Source: Verrucomicrobiota bacterium (lineage in GTDB: Bacteria > Verrucomicrobiota > Verrucomicrobiia > Limisphaerales > UBA9464). From it: 64,000 bases of DNA. The position numbers were made by a program, and so were the translations under genes. Under the pieces are notes generated by a model, which did not search any database, was not told the DNA's origin, and saw nothing but the letters and a program-made list of their open reading frames with translations. The stretch is taken from NCBI GenBank assembly GCA_947454705.1, contig CANGKZ010000018.1, positions 1 to 64,000 of the forward strand, in the 5' to 3' direction. Numbering within the stretch: the stretch's first letter is position 1; each line of letters starts with the position of its first letter. Positions 38,509 to 52,341 of the stretch are shown here, in pieces.

Positions 38509-40233
38509 ATGAATTCCAGTTTTCAACGGATCGTCCGGCGATTGCCACCTCGTTCACGAAGCCTCTTGGCGACGTGCATTTATGGCGTCGGGGCGGGCTT
38601 ATCGGCAGTCGCTTTTCAGCTCGGAATCAACTGGGTGTACACGAACGGCATCCATCGACTCTCGCATGAGCCCTTGGGAACCTTTTTTGTTGGAAGTCTG
38701 ATCGTGCTGGTCAGCACAGCCTTGGTGGTAGGCTGGTTGCTGAATTCGTTTTGTCGAGAGGCGGCCGGCAGCGGGGTTCCGCAACTGAAACTCGCGTTTT
38801 GGAAGGACTTTGGATTTGTTCCCGCACGGGTGATCTGGGTCAAGTTCCTAGCGGGAATTCTAAGTGTCGGAGGCGGTTCCAGCCTGGGTCGAGAGGGACC
38901 GAGCGTTCAACTGGCAGGCGCCGTAGGTTCCAACCTGGCTGCGTGGACCGGGGAGGCGAAGCAGCGCCGCCGGGCGTCGGCAGCGGCCGGGGCCTCGGCC
39001 GGTTTGGCCGCCGCATTCAATACTCCCATTGCAGCCACTACGTTTGTCCTGGAAGAAATCATCGGGGACCTGAACAGCCGTTTCCTTGGGGCGATCCTTC
39101 TGGCGTCGGTCCTCGGTGCCTTCGTCGTTCACGCAATTATTGGGAAACAACCTTCTTTTTCGCTTCTGGGGGTGGAGTCGCCGACGTGGCGAGGATATCT
39201 GCTTACCCCAGTAGTGGCGGGATTGGCCGGCACTGTCGGGGTTCATTTTCAGCGACTATCCCTGGGCCTGAGATTCCGAATGAAGGTAGCCAAGGAAATT
39301 CCCCGATGGATCTTCCCGAGCTTCGGCGCCCTGATTACATGGGCGCTTGGCTCGATCGTCTTTTGGCGAACGGGACATCTTGGGGTCTTCAGTCTCGGAT
39401 ATGATGATCTTTCCAGCGCATTGTCAGGAGACCTCGGATGGCAGCTCGCCATTGTTCTCCTCCTGGCCAAGTTCCTTGCAACGGTGAGCTGCTACGGATT
39501 TGGGGGCTGCGGGGGTATTTTTTCTCCCACCCTCTTTTTCGGAGGTATGACCGGAATCGCCGTCGCGGGTCTGGCGGGAATCGGATGGCACATTTCCCGA
39601 GGGGATACACTGGCGCTGGCGGTAGTGGGGATGAGCGCCTGTCTCGGTGCGGTGGTCTTCGCCCCCGTTACCGGAATTCTCATGGTCTTCGAAATGACGC
39701 ATGAATTCGCCCTCGTACCAGCCTTGATGCTAGGCGCGTTGGTCAGCCAGACCATCGGCCGGAAGATGAACCGCGAGAACTTTTATGACGCGCTCCTCGC
39801 GCAGGATGGACATCGACTGGAGCACGTTCGTCCTCCTCGGGACCTCCAAGGGTGGCGGGAGTTGCCGGTGTCCGCAGTGGCGAACTTCAGTCCGAAGGTC
39901 CTGCCGGATGTCACACCTTCAAGCCTCTTCGACGCGTTGGGGACACCCTATGAACGTTTCCCGGTTGTGATCGGAGGAACGTTGGCCGGGATCATCACCA
40001 GGAGCGATGCCTCGGCAGCCCTGTCGTCGGGCCGGAAACCATCTTTGAATCCCCCGATCACCTGCCGACGCGATCAAACGGTCGGGGAATTGCAGAGCCT
40101 CCTGATTGAATCCGACCTCCATTTGGTTGTCGTCTTGGATCGCAACGACGGCCAGGTGATCGGCCTGGTGACCCTCCATGATCTGCTGCGGGCAGAGGCA
40201 ACCTTCGCCGACACGTCAGCGGACAATCTTTGA
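38509..40233 (+). CDS. ClC-family chloride channel/antiporter with CBS domains
   Basis: 574 residues. The ClC signature motifs are all present: GSGVPQLK (87-94), GREGPSVQL (127-135) with the external gating glutamate Glu129, and the filter motif GCGGIFSPTLFFGG. About ten or more membrane helices fill residues 20-440. The C-terminal 130 residues contain two CBS-like segments (SLFDALGTPYERFPVVIGG; LVVVLDRNDGQVIGLVTLHD), which usually bind adenine nucleotides. Retention of the gating Glu suggests proton-coupled exchange rather than a passive channel, by family analogy. It is the first gene of the ion/osmolyte block. Confidence 0.93.
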   Translation: MNSSFQRIVRRLPPRSRSLLATCIYGVGAGLSAVAFQLGINWVYTNGIHRLSHEPLGTFFVGSLIVLVSTALVVGWLLNSFCREAAGSGVPQLKLAFWKDFGFVPARVIWVKFLAGILSVGGGSSLGREGPSVQLAGAVGSNLAAWTGEAKQRRRASAAAGASAGLAAAFNTPIAATTFVLEEIIGDLNSRFLGAILLASVLGAFVVHAIIGKQPSFSLLGVESPTWRGYLLTPVVAGLAGTVGVHFQRLSLGLRFRMKVAKEIPRWIFPSFGALITWALGSIVFWRTGHLGVFSLGYDDLSSALSGDLGWQLAIVLLLAKFLATVSCYGFGGCGGIFSPTLFFGGMTGIAVAGLAGIGWHISRGDTLALAVVGMSACLGAVVFAPVTGILMVFEMTHEFALVPALMLGALVSQTIGRKMNRENFYDALLAQDGHRLEHVRPPRDLQGWRELPVSAVANFSPKVLPDVTPSSLFDALGTPYERFPVVIGGTLAGIITRSDASAALSSGRKPSLNPPITCRRDQTVGELQSLLIESDLHLVVVLDRNDGQVIGLVTLHDLLRAEATFADTSADNL

Positions 40234-40378
40234 GGTCTGGAGCTCAATGAAAAACGGACCCTTTTTGGACCCGATTGCTCGAGTGGCCCCAATCCGCTTC
40301 ACAGTCAGCGGCACCAAACTCCCTGAAGCAGAATAATTCCATTAGTCCGTTTGAAGTTTGAAACACGGTCTCATTCCG

Positions 40379-41878
40379 ATGAAAAAGACACTTTTGGTCA
40401 CATTGACCGCAATCCTAGGGCTGGTCGTCCTATTCATTTTCCCGATCGTTCACGTGACGGTTGTCGTGATCAATTTCGCAATTCACATTACCGTTCTGGG
40501 CACCCAGTTGCTCTTTTCCCGCCTTCCCAGAGTTCCAGTTGGACCGGACCGGGAACACAACGGCGAGCCGTTTGTATCGGTTTACGTTCCGGCTCATAAT
40601 GAACCGCCAGAAATCCTCCGGGAAACCCTTCAATCGCTGCGTCATCTCAGCTGGCGAAACTACGAAGTGCTCGTCATCGACAACAACACGACGGACGAGA
40701 ACATTTGGCGCCCCATCGAGCAGCTGTGCCTTGAACTTGGCCCGAGATTCCGTTTCCTACACGTCGAAGGTCTGGAGGGCGCGAAGGCCGGGGCGATGAA
40801 CTGGGCACACCGGTTTATGGATTCCAGGGCGGAATATATTTTTGTGGTGGATGCCGACTACGTGGTTGAACGTCGGGCTTTAAAGCGCGCCCTGAGCTAC
40901 TGTGCTGAGGGGGTCGGTCTGGTTCAGTTCCCCCAGGAATATCGCAACATCGGCCCCGCGAATGCCGGAATGGCGTTGGATTTCAAACACTTCTTCGCGG
41001 GCTACATGAACATCGCCAACCGACTTGGGTGTGTACCTTCCACCGGGACATTGAGCCTGATCCGAGTTTCCGCCCTTCAAGCGGTCAAAGGGTTTGATAC
41101 CGTGGTCGTGACCGAGGATGCGGATCTTGGCTTTCGTCTCAACGCAGCGGGCTATCGGTCGATCTATGCCCCCGAGGTCATCGGACGCGGACTCATGCCC
41201 CACGATCTGGAAGGGCTCAAGAAGCAGCGGTGGCGTTGGGCTTTCGGCAACGCGCAAATTCTGAAGCTCAACTGGCGCCGCCTCCTTCTGAGTCCAGACC
41301 TGTGCCTGCGACAGAAGGTCGGCTATCTGGTTCACCTGACTGCGTGGTTCAACTTCAATCTCATCCCCAGCCTGACGCTGATCCTGCTTGCACCGCTCGC
41401 TCTGACCAATCGCCTGCACGTCCTGCATCCCCATCTCGTCGTCTTGTCGGGATTCACCCTTACGACCTTCATGGTGCTGCGCTTTGGCACGCTCTTCTAC
41501 AGTCTCAGAAGAGAACATCACAGCCTCGGTGAAATCTTCCTGGCCTATCTCACGCATCTCGGTTTGGGCTGGGTGTTCAGCAGTAGCTGGATGAAATGCC
41601 TTTGGAACCACCATTCGCCATTTGTTCGAACAAACAAGTTCATCACGGCCCGGGTCCCAGGCTTGCTCCGAACCACCCTCATCGAGGCGGGTTTGGGAAC
41701 TGCACTGCTCGCCGCCTGTGTGGTCCTGACGATGACGGATTTCATCATCGGCCCCATTGCAGCGCTTGCGATGGCGACGGGTCGCTTCCTGGTTTATTGG
41801 GTTTGGTGGCAGACGCAGAAAACCCGCCAGATTACGCTGGATATCGCCAGCAACAGGGAGCCCTTCATCGCTGCCTAA
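40379..41878 (+). CDS. Processive family-2 glycosyltransferase (cellulose/curdlan synthase-like)
   Basis: 499 residues. Two N-terminal membrane helices (about 1-45) precede a GT2 domain with VYVPAHNEP, DNNTT, the metal-binding DAD (158-160), TEDADLGFRL (catalytic base region) and the processivity motif QRWRW. Four C-terminal membrane helices follow. This D,D,D,QxxRW architecture belongs to BcsA-like synthases that extend a beta-glycan while exporting it. There is no PilZ domain and no BcsB partner, so a different polymer or a membrane glycolipid is possible. An in-frame TTG lies 21 bases upstream; ATG 40379 is preferred. It sits among ion transporters, suggesting an envelope glycan made under osmotic stress. 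Confidence 0.85.
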   Translation: MKKTLLVTLTAILGLVVLFIFPIVHVTVVVINFAIHITVLGTQLLFSRLPRVPVGPDREHNGEPFVSVYVPAHNEPPEILRETLQSLRHLSWRNYEVLVIDNNTTDENIWRPIEQLCLELGPRFRFLHVEGLEGAKAGAMNWAHRFMDSRAEYIFVVDADYVVERRALKRALSYCAEGVGLVQFPQEYRNIGPANAGMALDFKHFFAGYMNIANRLGCVPSTGTLSLIRVSALQAVKGFDTVVVTEDADLGFRLNAAGYRSIYAPEVIGRGLMPHDLEGLKKQRWRWAFGNAQILKLNWRRLLLSPDLCLRQKVGYLVHLTAWFNFNLIPSLTLILLAPLALTNRLHVLHPHLVVLSGFTLTTFMVLRFGTLFYSLRREHHSLGEIFLAYLTHLGLGWVFSSSWMKCLWNHHSPFVRTNKFITARVPGLLRTTLIEAGLGTALLAACVVLTMTDFIIGPIAALAMATGRFLVYWVWWQTQKTRQITLDIASNREPFIAA

Positions 41879-42073: not shown

Positions 42074-43201
42074 GTGAACAACATTGAAATCATTGTTGGG
42101 TTGCTGCTGCTTTTTATGGCGGTACCCGACGTCTGTCGAAAGGTCCGGCGCCCCGGCCTAATCTTTTGCGCATTCGTGATGTTCGGGTTTCTTCTCGGCC
42201 CCGTCGTCAATCAGGAGGTCGCCAAAACACTCGAGCAGATCGGGCAGGTCGGTTTTTTACTGCTGCTGTTCGAGGTCGGCTTGGAGATCAACCTCCCGCC
42301 GCTGCGGCAATTTGCTGTTCCGCTCGGCCACGCGTTTAAATGGGCCCTAGCGCAATACCCGGTGACCTTCGGCCTGGCCAAACTCGCGGGCATGAATGGC
42401 GGACAGGCGCTTCTGGCCAGTGCCGCACTCACCGCCTGCTCCGTGGGTATGGCGCATCCCGCATGGAAGTCGTACCCCAACATCAGCTTCGAACCAAGGA
42501 CTCAACTCTTACAGGTGATGGTTGCATTGGAACTTATGGCGATTGTCGTTCTGGCAGTTGAAACGACGGTGCTTAAGACCGGATGGTCGTGGTCCGTTGC
42601 CTTGAAGCTTTCAGGCATCGGCACAACGGTCCTGCTGATCGTCTACTTCGCCGATTCCCTCACCAAGTTGTTCCAAACCATCCTCGAAAGGACGACTCAT
42701 TGGCGGATACACCTCCTGGTACTGCTCGTGTTGGTCGTTTGCGCCGCGGGCAACCGACTGGGACTGGATTCCGCCAAGACGGCCTTCTTCCTTGGCCTCG
42801 CAATGCGGCGTACCGAGCATGACGGAATACCCCTTGAGGAATACATTGCCCCGATCAGTCGCCAGTTCCTGGTACCGTTGTTTTTTGTCGCCCTCGGACT
42901 GCAGATCGACTGGCAGCTGCTCCTGGGCTGGGTCAGCCTCGCTGCCATCGGCGCTGCCGGAATGATCCTGGCAGTGCGTGAAATCCTCGCCCGCCGGTGG
43001 CTCCCCACTGGCGGAGATGGTCGATCATTCCTATTGCTGTGTCCGAATTTGACGCTTGTGGCGCTGGCGGCCAAGGCCCTGCAGGATGCCGGGATGGATG
43101 CGAGACTGACCGCTTGGCTGGTTCTTACCGGGCTCTTCGTCACGGTCGTCGCCCTGGCACTGCTGCCGACTGGAGGTGACGACAGCGAGCCTGCGACGTG
43201 A
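42074..43201 (+). CDS. CPA2-type cation/proton antiporter, membrane domain
   Basis: A 375-residue all-membrane protein starting at GTG. Its start (IIVGLLLLFMAVPDVCRKVR, RPGLIFCAFVMFGFLLGP) and the block IGQVGFLLLLFEVGLEINLP are characteristic of the Na+/H+-exchanger (KefB/NapA-like) fold. About eleven helices are visible. It lacks the TrkA-N regulatory domain found in full KefB proteins and is somewhat short. It would exchange Na+ or K+ for protons. It lies between a glycosyltransferase and the Trk genes on the same strand. Confidence 0.85.
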   Translation: MNNIEIIVGLLLLFMAVPDVCRKVRRPGLIFCAFVMFGFLLGPVVNQEVAKTLEQIGQVGFLLLLFEVGLEINLPPLRQFAVPLGHAFKWALAQYPVTFGLAKLAGMNGGQALLASAALTACSVGMAHPAWKSYPNISFEPRTQLLQVMVALELMAIVVLAVETTVLKTGWSWSVALKLSGIGTTVLLIVYFADSLTKLFQTILERTTHWRIHLLVLLVLVVCAAGNRLGLDSAKTAFFLGLAMRRTEHDGIPLEEYIAPISRQFLVPLFFVALGLQIDWQLLLGWVSLAAIGAAGMILAVREILARRWLPTGGDGRSFLLLCPNLTLVALAAKALQDAGMDARLTAWLVLTGLFVTVVALALLPTGGDDSEPAT

Positions 43202-43364: not shown

Positions 43365-44774
43365 ATGCCTAAATCGAAACTCCCACGATTCGACTCCGCG
43401 CCTATCCAGCGGCGGAGCCAGGTCGATTTGCGCCTCGTCCCGCTGGTATTCGGCATCCTGATCTTGGTTGGCGCCATTTTGTTGTCACTACCCTGGGCTC
43501 ACAAGACCGGACGTACCATCGACTGGATCGATGCCCTGTTTCTATCGGCTTCGGCGACGTGCGTCACCGGACTGACCACCGTCAATGTAGCGGATACCTT
43601 CAATTCTTTCGGACAGGCCGTGATACTGGGTTTAATCCAGGCGGGTGGATTGGGGATATTTACCAGCAATATCCTGCTCGTGGTTGTCAGTGGCAACCGG
43701 CTGTCCCTCTCGGACGAGCAGACAATCCACGCAACCGTGGGCCGGTTGCGGCAGGCCAGACCTCTGGATGTTTTCGTATACGCCTGTGTGTTCGTCGTGC
43801 TCTTTGAACTGGCCGGGACCGTGGCTCTCTTTACGCTCATGACGCGGGCACAACCAGAGGTCGATGTCTGGGAGGTGCTTTGGGAATCCGTCTTCCATTC
43901 GGTCAGTGCTTTTTGCAATGCCGGGATCTCCATCTTTCCGGACGGCATGGCTCGTTGGCGACAGAACCCGCTGGTCCTGGCCGTCATCTCCACGCTGGTG
44001 ATCGCGGGCGGCATTGGGTTGATGACGCTGATCAACCTGCGGTATTATCATTTCTGGAGGCGAAACCCGCTCAAGCGAGGGCGGCTCACCTTTCAAACTC
44101 GCATGTCAATGGTTTCGGCAGCCGTTTTACTAATTTTCGGAACCGCGTCCACCCTGCTGTTTGAATCCAATCATACCCTCCAAGATGGGACGATAAGCGA
44201 GAAAGTGTCCTGGGCCTTTTTTCATTCGGCGATGTCCCGGACCGCTGGTTTCAACGTGGTGGACGTCGGGGCGATGAATCCACCGACATTGCTCGTCACC
44301 CTGGGGTTGATGTTTGTCGGGGGTTCACCGGGCTCAATGTCGGGGGGTATCAAGACGATGACGTTTGTGGTCCTGCTGCTTACGGCATGGTCAGCCCTTC
44401 GTCGGCGGGCCGAGGTGCAGTTTTGGAATTGCCGCCTGACGCCAAGCATCTGCTTCATCGCCACCATGCTGGCCTTGGTAGGGATTGGGTGCGTCGTGGT
44501 CGGCGTAATGCTCCTGATGGTGTTTGAAGACGGCCGTTCAGCGGCGCAGACAAACCAGCGGTGGCTTGCCCTGGTCTTCGAGGCGGTTTCCGCCTTCGGC
44601 ACGGTCGGATTGAGCACGGGAATTACTCCACTCCTGACCGCCGCCGGGAAGATTGTGATCATTGCGCTGATGGGGGTTGGCCGGATTGTGCCGCTCATGC
44701 TTAGTGTCTACCTGGCCCGTCCGTTGAACCCGCTTCGGGTTCGACAACCCCATGAGGAACTCTCACTTGGTTGA
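43365..44774 (+). CDS. TrkH/KtrB potassium uptake membrane subunit
   Basis: 469 residues with the four-fold pore-loop layout of TrkH/KtrB: filter-region motifs SATCVTGLTTVN, SAFCNAGIS, SRTAGFNVVD and SAFGTVGLSTG each contain the conserved glycine, and each is flanked by membrane helices. The length near 470 fits KtrB better than the longer TrkH. It mediates K+ uptake together with the cytoplasmic ring encoded immediately downstream. Its TGA stop overlaps the next gene's TTG start by four bases, showing translational coupling. Confidence 0.93.
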   Translation: MPKSKLPRFDSAPIQRRSQVDLRLVPLVFGILILVGAILLSLPWAHKTGRTIDWIDALFLSASATCVTGLTTVNVADTFNSFGQAVILGLIQAGGLGIFTSNILLVVVSGNRLSLSDEQTIHATVGRLRQARPLDVFVYACVFVVLFELAGTVALFTLMTRAQPEVDVWEVLWESVFHSVSAFCNAGISIFPDGMARWRQNPLVLAVISTLVIAGGIGLMTLINLRYYHFWRRNPLKRGRLTFQTRMSMVSAAVLLIFGTASTLLFESNHTLQDGTISEKVSWAFFHSAMSRTAGFNVVDVGAMNPPTLLVTLGLMFVGGSPGSMSGGIKTMTFVVLLLTAWSALRRRAEVQFWNCRLTPSICFIATMLALVGIGCVVVGVMLLMVFEDGRSAAQTNQRWLALVFEAVSAFGTVGLSTGITPLLTAAGKIVIIALMGVGRIVPLMLSVYLARPLNPLRVRQPHEELSLG

Positions 44775-45475
44775 CCGAAATTGATATCGTGGCAAAACGT
44801 ATACTGATCATTGGTGCGGGGAGATTTGGAGGCCACCTGGCCGCCCGACTTTCCGAGTTCGGCTGCGAACTCCTTCTGGCCGATCGAAACCCCGAAAGGG
44901 TCGAAGATTTGGTGCATGAGGGTTTTCATGCCGTGGAGATGGATGCCGAGGACCCGGAGGCCCTGAAGGAGGCCGGGGTACAGGATGCGGATGCGGTCGT
45001 CGTCAGCATCGGGGAAAACATGCAAGGCAGCATCCTGACAACCCTCTTGCTCAAGGAACTCATGGTAAAGAAGCTTATCTGCCGGGCCGTCGATGCACGG
45101 CACGCCACGGTTCTCGAAAAACTGGGGGCAGATCTCGTGGTACTCCCGACTCGAGACATGGCTTACCGGCTTGCCGAGCGGCTCCGCGATAATGTCGGGA
45201 GTGATCGCCAGCAGCTTTGCCAGGACCATCAACTCGCCCAGATCCGGCTCGGAGCACGCTTGAATGAGAAGACCCTGGCCGCCGCTTCATTGCGCGATCG
45301 GTACAAGGTGAACGTCGTCTTGATCACCCGGGTGGGCCCCAAGAATCAGCAACACCCCATCGAACCCTCACCCGATTGCATCCTCCTCCATGGCGATACT
45401 CTTTTCGTGGCCGGACGGCGGGAGAATCTAAACCGGTTCGAGCTCGAATGCGGGGATCCGCCCCAACATTCGTAG
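44771..45475 (+). CDS. TrkA/KtrA potassium uptake regulatory subunit
   Basis: 234 residues. An N-terminal RCK Rossmann domain with ILIIGAGRFGGHLA and an acidic residue after strand two (LLADRN) binds NAD(H)/ATP. The C-terminal part (about 150-225; RLNEKTLAAASLRDRYKVNV, DTLFVAGRRENL) is a TrkA-C domain. It forms the gating ring for the TrkH/KtrB subunit encoded just before it. The start is the TTG in the overlap at 44771, or possibly the GTG at 44789 directly before the Rossmann strand. It converges on the minus-strand glycosyltransferase/phosphatase gene 96 bases away. Confidence 0.93.
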   Translation: MTEIDIVAKRILIIGAGRFGGHLAARLSEFGCELLLADRNPERVEDLVHEGFHAVEMDAEDPEALKEAGVQDADAVVVSIGENMQGSILTTLLLKELMVKKLICRAVDARHATVLEKLGADLVVLPTRDMAYRLAERLRDNVGSDRQQLCQDHQLAQIRLGARLNEKTLAAASLRDRYKVNVVLITRVGPKNQQHPIEPSPDCILLHGDTLFVAGRRENLNRFELECGDPPQHS

Positions 45476-45571: not shown

Positions 45572-47098
45572 TTATGCGCCTTGCTGATCGCCAATCCTTT
45601 CCACCTCGGCGAGGGTTCGGATCTCAGACCGTTGGGAGACCGGCAATCCGAGCAAGCGCAAAACGCCCCGAAGGTCACCCTCCACGGTGTGCGCTGCCGC
45701 ATCCCGCACCGGTGCGGACTTGGGTTGGAACGCGACCGACGTTCCCGCCGCACGGAGCAGGCACACATCGTTGTCGCCATCCCCCACGACCAGGACCTTC
45801 TCCGCTCCGATTCCCACTTCCTCCAGCAGATGCCGTAAAACATTCAATTTGCAGATCTGGTGCTCCTTGCAGCCCTTGGGATGCTTCATCGCCGGGGCCA
45901 CGGTGATGCGCCCGGACGCCTTTTCACTCCGAAACTTCATGACGTGACTGACGGTAAAATCCGCGAAGACACGCCGCCGCACCGTTTCGGCAGCCATCCG
46001 GTAGCTGTCCGTAACCACACCCACCAAATATCCGGCCTTGCGCAAAGCAACCACCGTTTCCACGGCGCCCGGCATGAGCGGGATATCTCGGGCTACCCGT
46101 TCGAAGGTGGACTTCGGGAGCCCGGCAAAGACGGCGGCGATGCGCTTGGTTCGAATGCTCGCGCTCATGGTATGATTATCCAGCAATGGGTTGAGCTGTT
46201 CCATCCGCGCGGTTCGATGCGCCAGTTCCATGACGAAGCGGCCATTGAGCAGCGTTCCGTCCATGTCAATCAGAGCCAGCTTTTCCGCTCCCTTCAACAT
46301 CTTCAAGGCGTGGCGAAAGTCCGCCCGGTGCACCCGATCCCGCTCCTTGGCCGCACGCACATGGCTCACCCGCAATCGGCCCCATTCTCCCGCCCGCTCC
46401 AAGATGGTACGGGCGACCTGGGTGGCCATTTCTCCGAGGGCTTCCAGGGATTGGCTGTCATGCTTGATTTGTCCAATATCCACCTCGACGAGTCGGGCCC
46501 GCGCCGCCGCTGCATCGATCAGCAACCCCACATCCACGCCGTAATCGTTTTCAAAGCGGAGTTTCCGCAACAAATCCCGGCGCACAGCAATGATCCCGCC
46601 CAATGGCTGCGCAAAGTCTGCCAACTCCGGGAAATAGGTTCGAAGCAACGGCTTGGCGGTCAACACCGTCACTCTCCCACCGCTCCGGGCAAACCGCGCC
46701 TTCACAAAGTCGGCGGTACCGTCGACCAGGGGCTGGGTCATGCGCTCGACCAGATCCCGCCGCAGGCCCCGCAGATCGCCATCCAGGTATAAGACAAATT
46801 CAAACTTGGCCGCCTGAAGCCCGTCTTCCATCGATGCTCCTTTTCCGAGGAGGGAACTGGTTACAACCTTCGCACCGGCCGCCTCGGCCAGTTCATCGGT
46901 CCCATCGATGGATCCGTCATCGATGACCAGCACTTCGCCCACCCTGGGATCCCTTTTCACGAACTTTACCACGCTTGCCACCGTCCTTGATTCATTGAGG
47001 ACGGGGATGACCACTGTGATTCTGGCGTCCGCCGTCGGGCGACGTTTAGATGCCGATGCCTTGCGGGGCACCTTGGAGCGAACTGCTTTGGGATCCAT
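45572..47098 (-). CDS. Fused GpgS-like glucosyltransferase and HAD phosphatase
   Basis: 508 residues with two enzymes. Residues 25-240: a GT2/GT81-type domain with VVIPVLNESRTVASVV, VIDDGSIDGT, GKGASMEDGL, the metal motif DGD (106-108), GRVTVLTAKPLL, FAQPLGG and DYGVDVGLLID, and a candidate metal ligand His213. This is the pattern of glucosyl-3-phosphoglycerate synthases. Residues 273-495: a HAD phosphatase with nucleophile motif DMDGTL (278-283), VVTDSY and VVGDGDNDVCLL. The likely reactions are NDP-glucose plus 3-phosphoglycerate to glucosyl-3-phosphoglycerate, then dephosphorylation to glucosylglycerate, a compatible solute. The substrate is inferred; a mannosyl version or a different GT2 role is possible. 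It follows the Na+/H+ antiporter gene by 32 bases. Confidence 0.75.
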   Translation of the reverse strand: MDPKAVRSKVPRKASASKRRPTADARITVVIPVLNESRTVASVVKFVKRDPRVGEVLVIDDGSIDGTDELAEAAGAKVVTSSLLGKGASMEDGLQAAKFEFVLYLDGDLRGLRRDLVERMTQPLVDGTADFVKARFARSGGRVTVLTAKPLLRTYFPELADFAQPLGGIIAVRRDLLRKLRFENDYGVDVGLLIDAAAARARLVEVDIGQIKHDSQSLEALGEMATQVARTILERAGEWGRLRVSHVRAAKERDRVHRADFRHALKMLKGAEKLALIDMDGTLLNGRFVMELAHRTARMEQLNPLLDNHTMSASIRTKRIAAVFAGLPKSTFERVARDIPLMPGAVETVVALRKAGYLVGVVTDSYRMAAETVRRRVFADFTVSHVMKFRSEKASGRITVAPAMKHPKGCKEHQICKLNVLRHLLEEVGIGAEKVLVVGDGDNDVCLLRAAGTSVAFQPKSAPVRDAAAHTVEGDLRGVLRLLGLPVSQRSEIRTLAEVERIGDQQGA

Positions 47099-47130: not shown

Positions 47131-48432
47131 CTATCGGAGCAGCCAAAAAAACAGCACAGCCACGGCGGTTGGAAGAGCGGCGCCAAGGAAAAGTCCAAGC
47201 GGACTGATGCCTTCATCCTGAAAGACCTTGGAATCCTGGAGTATTCCGACTCCAGCGGGATTGGGGGCGTTGGCTATCACGGTGAGTCCCCCACCCGTGA
47301 CGGCTCCCGCGACGAGGGCGTACTTCAGGTCATCCGAGATTCCGTCCACCAATGACCCCAGGTAGGTGAGCGCGGCATTGTCGGTCAATGCCGTCAGCCC
47401 GGTGGCACCGAAGTACAGCGCACCACCGCCGAGGTTCTGGATGAGTGGTTTCAACCAATAGGCCTGCAGCGATCCAAGGGTGACAAGCCCTGCCAGAAAG
47501 AATCCGACGAGAAGCCCCTCACGGAGTTTCAGGGGAGTTTGGTACTCGGCTGTGGCAGTAACCACCCCTAGGAAGAGTACGAAGATCCCAAAAAACACTT
47601 CTGGGTGATGGGCAAACGCGACAACCAGGGCGAGGAAACCGACGTGCACGACGGTCAACCAAACCGGAACCGGGGCGCTCGCGTCAGCTTCAACTGAGAT
47701 ACCTGCCAGATCCTTCCGAAAGGCCCACGCAATGATGGCCGCCGAAACCGCACAACTTGCCGCCGCTCGCCAGCCAAAATGACTGATCATGAACCAAGTG
47801 TCCCAGTTCCATTTGGCCGCCACCATCAGTACGGGTGGGGCCGCGAAATGGGTCAGGGTACCACCGATTGAAACGTTCACGAACAGGAGACCAAGGGTGG
47901 CGTAGGCGAAGCGGGTGGAGATTCCGCGGTCGAAATAGCGGCGCTTCAGGACCAGCGCCAGCAGTGTCATGGCCGCTGGTTCGGTTATGAGGGATCCCAA
48001 CAGCGGGCCAAGGACCAAGGCTGCCAGGTAGAAGGAGGTGCTCTCGCCAAACGGGAGGGCGCGAGCCGCCAGGGAAATAAACGACTCGGCGAGTTTCACC
48101 ACCGGTCGGGTCGCCGCCACCACCATTACCACCAGAACGAACTTTGGCTCAGTGAAGTTCAGCCCTTCAATGTAGGCCACGGCATGCTGAACGGACCCTT
48201 GGAGAACGGCGATGCCCAAGAATAGCACGGCCGCCCAGAGGCCGAACACGACCTCCGTCTCGGCAAGGAAGTGGAGGAGGTTTTCGGCCACCGATCCGGC
48301 GGGAAACCGGTGCGCCAAGTGTGCAAAGCGCTTGACGCAAAACGTATGCACCACCGCCAGTCCAAACAGGACCGTGGCCAACAGCTCAACAGGAGTAGCA
48401 GTCATCGTAAACACGGGATCAGGCGTCGCCAT
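47131..48432 (-). CDS. Putative Na+/H+ antiporter (PF07399-like)
   Basis: A 433-residue polytopic protein with about twelve hydrophobic helices. Conserved-looking blocks include LGPLLGSLITEPAAMTL, GGTLTHFAAPPVLMVA, TGLTALTDNAALTYLGSL and GGGLTVIANAPNPAG, typical of the 'putative Na+/H+ antiporter' family and distantly of ArsB/NhaD ion transporters. It would expel Na+ in exchange for protons. It is the upstream gene of a two-gene minus-strand unit with the glycosyltransferase/phosphatase fusion, linking ion extrusion with solute synthesis. An internal ATG nine codons in is an alternative start. Confidence 0.82.
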   Translation of the reverse strand: MATPDPVFTMTATPVELLATVLFGLAVVHTFCVKRFAHLAHRFPAGSVAENLLHFLAETEVVFGLWAAVLFLGIAVLQGSVQHAVAYIEGLNFTEPKFVLVVMVVAATRPVVKLAESFISLAARALPFGESTSFYLAALVLGPLLGSLITEPAAMTLLALVLKRRYFDRGISTRFAYATLGLLFVNVSIGGTLTHFAAPPVLMVAAKWNWDTWFMISHFGWRAAASCAVSAAIIAWAFRKDLAGISVEADASAPVPVWLTVVHVGFLALVVAFAHHPEVFFGIFVLFLGVVTATAEYQTPLKLREGLLVGFFLAGLVTLGSLQAYWLKPLIQNLGGGALYFGATGLTALTDNAALTYLGSLVDGISDDLKYALVAGAVTGGGLTVIANAPNPAGVGILQDSKVFQDEGISPLGLFLGAALPTAVAVLFFWLLR

Positions 48433-51456: not shown

Positions 51457-52341
51457 ATGAAGAAAAAAGACACACCGATTTCGGTCCGGGCCGGAAAGCT
51501 CGAATTCGTAAAGATCAACGCGAAGACGTGGGACTGGCGCGACGGGTATCACTGGATCCTTTCGCTGAGTTGGCCCCGCTTCTCTGCATTCGTTCTTGGG
51601 TTTTTCACCGCGATCAACCTCATCTTTGCGGCCGCCTACAAAGCGCGCAGCGGATGCATCGCGGAATTGCCACCAGGGTCCTTCCTGGATGCCATGTTCT
51701 TCAGTGTCGAGACGCTGGCGACCGTGGGATATGGCCACATGCACCCGGCCACGCTTTACGGCCACCTGGTGACAACCCTTGAAATCGTGGTTGGGATGTT
51801 TTGGACCGCAGTGGTTACCGGAGTGATTTTCGTCCGATTCTCACGCCCCAATGCCAGCATCGCCTTCAGCAAGATCGCGGTGATCAGCCAATTCGACGGG
51901 CAGCCAACGCTGATGCTTCGCGTGGCGAATCTCCGGCACCGATCCATGGTGGAAGCGGAATTCCGGCTCATGCTTTTGCGCAACGAACCGATCAAGGAGG
52001 GGGATTACGTCCGCCGATTTCACACTCTGAAACTCACCTTTGACCGCCTCATTTTGTTTCCTGCAGCCCTCACACTGCGGCACGTCATTGACGAAACCAG
52101 CCCGCTGCATGGAATGAGGGTCGAAGATTTCGAACGCACCGACACACGGTTGATGGCCTCGGTGGTCTGTGTGGACTCCGTGATCCATTCACCAGTTCAG
52201 AGCCAGCATGACTACGCGTGGCGCGACCTCCATTTCGGAAAGCGCTTTGTCGAAATCTATGCGGAAGCCGCCGACGGGAAACTGACCGTCGACTACGGTC
52301 GGCTTCACGAAGTGGAGCGAGATGATCTCGTGCCGGGATAA
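51457..52341 (+). CDS. Inward-rectifier-type potassium channel (KirBac)
   Basis: 294 residues with the prokaryotic Kir layout: an amphipathic N-terminal slide-helix region (DWRDGYHWILSLSWPRFSAF), outer helix (about 42-62), pore loop with the K+ filter TVGYG (89-93), inner helix (about 103-126), and a C-terminal cytoplasmic beta domain (130-285) starting FSRPNASIAFSKIAVI with FDGQPTLMLRVANLR. The length matches KirBac1.1/3.1. It passes K+ across the inner membrane and is typically gated by lipid and pH. The last 37 bases overlap the convergent LysR gene. Along with TrkH/TrkA it makes K+ handling a theme of the region. Confidence 0.93.
   Translation: MKKKDTPISVRAGKLEFVKINAKTWDWRDGYHWILSLSWPRFSAFVLGFFTAINLIFAAAYKARSGCIAELPPGSFLDAMFFSVETLATVGYGHMHPATLYGHLVTTLEIVVGMFWTAVVTGVIFVRFSRPNASIAFSKIAVISQFDGQPTLMLRVANLRHRSMVEAEFRLMLLRNEPIKEGDYVRRFHTLKLTFDRLILFPAALTLRHVIDETSPLHGMRVEDFERTDTRLMASVVCVDSVIHSPVQSQHDYAWRDLHFGKRFVEIYAEAADGKLTVDYGRLHEVERDDLVPG

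Follow-up and report, generated by a model that had tools for sequence, protein, structure and literature searches.

A fused GpgS-like glycosyltransferase and HAD phosphatase from Verrucomicrobiota, a candidate hexosyl-phosphoglycerate synthase/phosphatase

A 508-residue protein that joins a GT-A glycosyltransferase to a HAD phosphatase is encoded in a 64,000-nucleotide stretch of a Verrucomicrobiota genome (contig CANGKZ010000018.1, positions 1 to 64,000; hereafter the window). It is read here, with a probability of about 60%, as a single-chain hexosyl-phosphoglycerate synthase/phosphatase making an anionic osmolyte. The GT81-like N-terminal domain would take a hexose, either glucose or mannose, from a nucleotide sugar and attach it, with retention, to the 2-hydroxyl of phosphorylated glycerate, and the C-terminal HAD-IB domain would remove the phosphate in the same chain to give a negatively charged hexosylglycerate. 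Coupled dephosphorylation would pull the reaction forward and avoid a build-up of the phosphorylated intermediate. The product would serve as an osmolyte and as an anionic counter-ion for K+ taken up by Trk-type systems, and MscS-type channels might vent it on dilution. The transfer and dephosphorylation steps are predicted from residues and folds and the remaining steps from gene neighbours; we infer the donor, acceptor, reaction order, product and osmotic role, as well as the metal of a Cys/His site in the phosphatase.

The fused protein

The gene and the features discussed below are listed in Table 1. An earlier note on the window, made from its letters, had reported a fusion of a GpgS-like transferase and a HAD phosphatase in one chain. 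Its coordinates were exact, the strand (not given there) is minus, and Pfam confirmed both domains in the 508-residue frame (PF00535, residues 28–144; PF12710, residues 275–449).

Table 1. Features of the fusion gene and its surroundings (positions in the window; residue numbers of the window protein).
Feature	Position	Strand	Details
Fused GT-A glycosyltransferase and HAD phosphatase (P0001), 508 aa	45572..47098	-	ATG to TAA, one open frame
GT domain, about residues 27-243	46370..47020	-	Lys86, DGD106-108, GRVT141-144, Tyr186, Asp189, His213, Met224
HAD domain, about residues 270-484	45647..46291	-	Asp278/Asp280, Thr363, Lys417, Asp440/Asp444
Family-specific insert C410-x2-H413-x2-C416-K417	45848..45871	-	directly before motif III Lys
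Cys446	45761..45763	-	motif IV + 2, co-occurs with His413
PF07399 Na+/H+ antiporter	47131..48432	-	E 6e-173; 32 bases upstream of fusion gene, same strand
TrkH (43365-44774) and TrkA (44771-45475) potassium transport pair	43365..45475	+	converging on fusion gene
Na+/H+ exchanger family protein (PF00999)	42074..43201	+	
CLC chloride channel with CBS domain	38509..40233	+	
GT2 family protein	40358-41878	+	between chloride channel and Na+/H+ exchanger genes
Kir-type potassium channel	51457..52341	+	

Against NCBIfam models, the transferase half scores 190.9 bits with GpgS (NF010496), under the curated cut-off of 262. The HAD half scores 85.9 bits with SerB (TIGR00338; 88.2 for the domain alone, cut-off 144.15) and 48.4 bits with the broad HAD-IB model (TIGR01488; 50.3 for the domain alone), over the cut-off of 45 and with all four motifs present. 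Among the 25 families listed, the HAD-IB cut-off is the sole curated NCBIfam cut-off that the protein passes. Annotated by best match alone, the protein would be divided into "GpgS" and "SerB", neither of whose curated cut-offs it reaches.

The AlphaFold model of the protein has a mean pLDDT of 90.1 and a pTM of 0.71. The closest solved fold of the transferase half is GpgS (Z 29.9, rmsd 2.2, 220 residues), so that structure prediction upheld the GpgS likeness first seen in the letters. Other fold matches of the model are MpgS (Z 29.4), Helicobacter pylori SerB (26.8), MgS (22.7) and DPM synthase (22.3). Rubrobacter MpgS (3f1y) is the best sequence match (E 5e-27), over the transferase part only. 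A profile built from 45 fused proteins was searched against known structures and matched GpgS structures (E about 2e-46), Rubrobacter MpgS (1e-40), PSP (2e-39) and DPM synthase (1e-15); all 45 proteins match both the GpgS and the SerB models. By sequence and fold, the transferase half is nearest to GpgS and MpgS.

The DPM synthase fold match and a weak AglJ match (75 bits, cut-off 325) would suit a lipid-linked sugar synthase, in which the transferase acts on polyprenyl phosphate and the HAD domain has an unrelated role. The GpgS score from the same scan, the kept GRVT carboxylate site and the kept Lys-Asp-Asp network make this very improbable, and a polyprenyl-phosphate transferase was rejected.

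Distribution and ancestry

One scan of GTDB species genomes returned 137 relatives, and the best 80 were kept. Both domains lie in one open frame in 78 of these best 80, the exceptions being L017 and L052; with L009, at least 79 homologues have this arrangement. Phylum searches used strict cut-offs and counted the centre genomes. The window's phylum has two full-length matches and two transferase-only matches among 387 genomes. The fusion was found in 7 of 345 genomes of the phylum of L066 and in 4 of 246 of the phylum of L020, each match there beginning at position 2 or 3 of the 458-position model and reaching position 434 or beyond. Because 78 of the best 80 relatives carry both domains in one frame and the phylum matches are near full-length, the fusion is not an assembly or chance artefact.

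By record titles, carriers include Verrucomicrobia, Planctomycetes, Acidobacteria, Aminicenantes, Bacteroidetes, spirochaetes, a Syntrophaceae bacterium, Peribacter and Gracilibacteria types (Patescibacteria), and archaea (Micrarchaeota and others). The fusion is rare within phyla and patchy across bacteria and some archaea. No relative was found in viral contigs in one scan with a single protein query. The titles of L014, L024, L026, L069 and L070 (Akkermansia muciniphila, Kuenenia stuttgartiensis, Rikenella microfusus or Brachyspira murdochii) seem to have been given automatically to uncultured relatives.

A tree of the transferase domain was built from 71 of 80 fused rows (9 of the 15 Chitinophaga rows were omitted) and 13 of 30 canonical GpgS rows. 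A branch with support of 100 separates the fused proteins from the distant canonical GpgS, and the two facing branches at this split have 1.42 changes per column each. The distribution points to an ancient fusion and subsequent loss or transfer.

Three individual loci depart from the common form. At L017:6001-7458, tblastn matches nearly the whole fusion and the frame is open only from residue 244; this may be an interrupted or misassembled copy. L052 sits at a contig end. L027:264-2534 encodes an acidobacterial fusion of 756 aa with an added HATPase_c_2 domain, presumably of the anti-sigma kinase type, and a Na+/H+ exchanger gene follows 35 bases later.

Transferase site

Residue roles were taken from Mycobacterium tuberculosis GpgS (PMC2581804) and counted over 80 fused proteins; these and all later 80-row counts leave out L017, L052, the window itself (L001) and the unfused L010 and L011. 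The GpgS network of Lys114, Asp134-x-Asp136 and acidic residue 232 is present in the window protein as Lys86, Asp106, Asp108 and Asp189, and the glycerate carboxylate site Val186/Thr187 as Val143/Thr144. Lys86, Asp108, Arg142, Tyr186, Asp189 and Met224 occur in all 80 proteins, Val143 and Leu166 in 79, and Asp106 (Glu in the other 3) and Thr144 in 77. As read from the alignment, the retaining network, the second metal Asp and the backbone-and-Thr glycerate carboxylate site are kept.

The canonical comparison used 30 verrucomicrobial GpgS rows, which represent 26 distinct genes, four having been fetched twice with different flanks. Canonical Ser81, Tyr165, Glu212, Tyr213, Glu232, Arg256 and Asn260 are Asp, Phe, Ile, Ile, Asp, Ile and Ser in the window protein. 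At positions tied to the base, the donor and the beta8-alpha9 loop, 77 to 80 of the 80 fused proteins depart from canonical GpgS, and Asp61 is found in all 80. In the loop, Arg256, His258 and Asn260 correspond to Ile211, His213 and Ser215; the His alone is kept in the window protein, and 52 of 80 proteins have Asn at this metal-side place. The donor-site Tyr is preceded by a new motif, Phe-Glu-Asn-Asp (residues 182–185), whose four residues occur in 80, 80, 79 and 79 of 80 proteins. Because seven canonical positions are replaced, the acceptor phosphate and donor sugar may be bound differently from those of GpgS, or may be different.

In M. tuberculosis GpgS, a network of Ser210, Glu212 and Tyr213 is linked to mannose rejection (PMC2581804). 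The window protein has Gly at the first of these positions and hydrophobic residues at the other two; therefore the sugar, glucose or mannose, cannot be named. The proposal of a glucosylglycerate-type synthase thus stands in part: sequence, fold, and catalytic and carboxylate residues are like those of GpgS and MpgS, the score falls below the GpgS cut-off, and the 77 to 80 differing proteins leave glucose and 3-phosphoglycerate unestablished. The earlier note would have given up its reading if the phosphoglycerate-binding residues were absent. The carboxylate end of that site is present and the loop Arg and Asn are replaced.

The same two-step chemistry might act on another phosphorylated acceptor, such as a small hydroxy acid or polyol, and yield an osmolyte other than glucosyl- or mannosylglycerate. 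Replacement of the loop residues Arg256 and Asn260 in all 80 proteins, the nearly invariant Phe-Glu-Asn-Asp motif and the deep, fully supported split from canonical GpgS favor this, against which the glycerate-carboxylate residues are kept. Rubrobacter MpgS likewise aligns with other letters in the beta8-alpha9 loop, including the His258 and Asn260 places, so other letters occur in an enzyme named for making hexosyl-phosphoglycerate. On balance, another acceptor is unlikely, if not negligibly so.

The order of steps could also be reversed, the HAD domain making D-glycerate from phosphoglycerate and the transferase glycosylating free glycerate as in Rhodothermus MgS. At the acidic 232 place, Asp189 is Asp as in MgS (Asp192), where GpgS has Glu, and Phe136 also matches the MgS letter (Phe129) rather than that of GpgS. 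Rhodothermus-type MgS (GT78) is a fold relative with these two letters in common, and its Z of 22.7 is below the 29.9 of GpgS. With fold and profile both nearer the phosphoglycerate-using GpgS and MpgS, reversal is quite improbable, and synthesis of a hexosyl-phosphoglycerate followed by dephosphorylation is the preferred order.

Phosphatase site

HAD motifs I–IV are all complete in the window protein (Table 1). In PSP, a Glu binds the amino group of serine. This Glu aligns with Arg287, a place where the six commonest letters in the 80 fused proteins are Arg (32), Ser (26), Asn (12), Asp (6), Gly (2) and Thr (1); Glu is present in at most 1 of 80. The genome encodes a separate SerB that scores 230.8 bits, over the SerB cut-off. 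A phosphoserine role of the fused HAD is unlikely because the Glu is replaced and the cell has its own SerB. Of the SerB likeness first proposed, the fold stood and the substrate residue did not. The TIGR00338 match could still be taken to indicate a second phosphoserine phosphatase, with the fusion linking serine synthesis to the transferase; that match is under its cut-off, and on this and the two points above the idea was rejected as highly improbable.

The fused HADs carry an insert, C-x(1-2)-H-x2-C-K, which is a gap in three aligned PSP sequences. The full Cys/His set (insert and motif-IV Cys) is present in 62 of 80 proteins. His413 and Cys446 co-occur without exception (both in 62, neither in 18), and Cys416 alone stays in some of the 18. 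Among nine extra proteins from the phylum searches, some possibly from species already sampled, eight have the set and one lacks it. The insert loop is modeled with pLDDT of 93 (block 401–410) and 95 (block 411–420). The Cys3His set beside the phosphatase center is likely a structural or regulatory metal site, the metal itself being predicted. In GmhB and HisB N-terminal phosphatases, the motif III Lys is immediately preceded by a Cys/His zinc loop; these enzymes belong to another HAD subclass and have other spacing, and the window protein scores 28.3 bits with TIGR01656 (cut-off 84.15). Three proteins with the nucleophile intact (L021, L023 and L024) do without the set, which therefore cannot be a requirement of all such HADs.

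The nucleophile place (Asp278) holds Asp in 60 of 80 fused proteins and Asn (17), Gly (2) or His (1) in the other 20, which are L073, L077–L079 and L081–L091 (Chitinophaga type), L068, L070, L072, L030 and L055. Dephosphorylation by the fused chain therefore cannot be needed everywhere. On the transferase tree, the nucleophile state needs four changes (Chitinophaga, three spirochaetes, L030 and L055), a count that cannot tell loss from gain. The invariant transferase columns (Lys86, Asp108, Arg142, Tyr186, Asp189 and Met224) are intact in the nucleophile-negative proteins. One strain of Chitinophaga skermanii has both an intact copy and a dead-HAD copy (L066 and L084), and genome G702 has a second copy (L160) with Glu as nucleophile and without the Cys/His set. 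Of 21 nucleophile-negative proteins, 16 lack the set, versus 3 of 68 nucleophile-positive ones; these rows share ancestry. Several flanking genes are common to 14 loci of the Chitinophaga type, so its dead HAD is probably kept for a reason. The natural series from active to dead HAD is a test bed for the purpose of coupling.

Gene neighborhood

The surroundings of the fusion gene are rich in ion-transport genes on both strands (Table 1). The 32-base spacing from a Na+/H+ antiporter gene, already reported from the letters, was confirmed, the PF07399 gene, also on the minus strand, stopping at 47131. Scans for promoters and terminators gave no more than chance (0 and 4 against an expected 0.8 and 4.0), so this gap is the sole basis for an operon. 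PF07399 recurs near four relatives (L012, L014, L016 and L024).

Neighbor lists were compiled with Pfam and exclude proteins over 1150 aa. Among the 121 nearest neighbors of 67 fused loci, the MscS channel is the most frequent Pfam family (8). Response regulators (7) come next, then Na+/H+ exchangers and kinase-type ATPase domains at 6 each, and HSP70, lyases and MutS recur at 4 each. MscS is absent among the 25 families listed for 103 second neighbors, though at least one (L025) is present. Neighbors vary, and no fixed gene order was found around the fused loci.

BLAST was run with nine ion-transport families, some queries being taken from fused loci themselves. Of 64 fused loci, which total 714 kb, 22 have at least one ion-transport gene nearby, against 0 of 40 control stretches (13 kb each, 520 kb), of which 27 came from the window's genome and 13 from five carriers, leaving most carriers behind the 64 loci unrepresented. 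With the nine query-supplying loci dropped, 13 of 55 loci have such a gene (p = 0.0004); with L037 and L075 (kin of suppliers) and one of L074/L076 also dropped, 10 of 52 do (p = 0.002). The same nine families gave no ion-transport neighbor at 42 of the 64 loci, and none at 15 Chitinophaga loci.

Canonical GpgS passes the NF010496 cut-off in 51 of 288 genomes of the phylum, the window's genome not among them. An ion-transport gene was found at 0 of 19 canonical GpgS loci of the phylum, so an association with ion transport is not a feature of GpgS in general. Canonical GpgS has other neighbors. At L117, the one canonical locus whose four neighbors were profiled, lie an MggA-like GT4 and a sucrose-phosphorylase-like enzyme (L117:2452-5444 with L117:6748-7746), each scoring below its own cut-off, with M20-peptidase-like and unnamed genes on the flanks. 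Canonical loci L131, L132 and L133 have different neighbors again.

Relation to known systems

M. tuberculosis GpgS (GT81) shares the GT-A fold, the Lys-Asp-Asp/Glu network and the GRVT carboxylate site; the window protein differs in its fused HAD, its score under the NCBIfam cut-off and the seven replaced positions. Rubrobacter MpgS is alike in sequence and fold, whereas its match covers the transferase part alone and its beta8-alpha9 loop letters differ. SerB and Methanocaldococcus jannaschii PSP share the HAD fold (entries from H. pylori and M. jannaschii match at Z 24.2 to 26.8) and align over motifs I–IV, unlike the window HAD in their substrate Glu, their lack of the Cys-His-Cys insert and motif II (SGG, against TDS in the window protein).

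MgsD joins a GT55 MpgS to a HAD-IIB MpgP. PF09488, the GT55 domain, is not among the 10 Pfam families matched by the window protein at E up to 0.1, and membership in this MpgS-MpgP type was rejected. What the two have in common is a synthase and a phosphatase in one chain, MgsD of Dehalococcoides mccartyi being described as a bifunctional mannosylglycerate synthase that uses 3-phosphoglycerate (PMC8490865).

No match to GT20 (trehalose-6-phosphate or glucosylglycerol-phosphate synthase type) was found in the 95.7% complete genome, which leaves room for a hexosylglycerate-type solute. Glucosylglycerol-phosphate synthase is a GT20 enzyme, and its fused form differs from the window protein in that respect. 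This fused glucosylglycerol-phosphate synthase/phosphatase is a known osmolyte synthase-phosphatase fusion (PMC10873239). For the planctomycete R. baltica, synthesis of glucosylglycerate and mannosylglucosylglycerate is reported (PMC13342039). Osmolyte synthase-phosphatase fusions are thus known already. No description of a GT81-like and HAD-IB fusion was found in titles and abstract starts of the open-licence literature, and the combination is apparently undescribed.

Novelty may extend to the acceptor, to the metal site and to the repeated phosphatase loss. It is conceivable, if doubtful, that all three belong together in a widespread uncharacterized family whose osmolyte has yet to be assigned and might be neither glucosyl- nor mannosylglycerate. 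Its Cys3His site would respond to metal or redox state, and its phosphatase would repeatedly have become a pseudoenzyme while the transferase was kept, phosphorylated and free products, or regulation, being exchanged in evolution.

The fusion family occurs in bacteria and archaea, often beside Na+, K+ and mechanosensitive transport genes. If the synthase/phosphatase reading is true, the family links the making of a charged sugar acid to its dephosphorylation and would add a solute pathway for many uncultured organisms.
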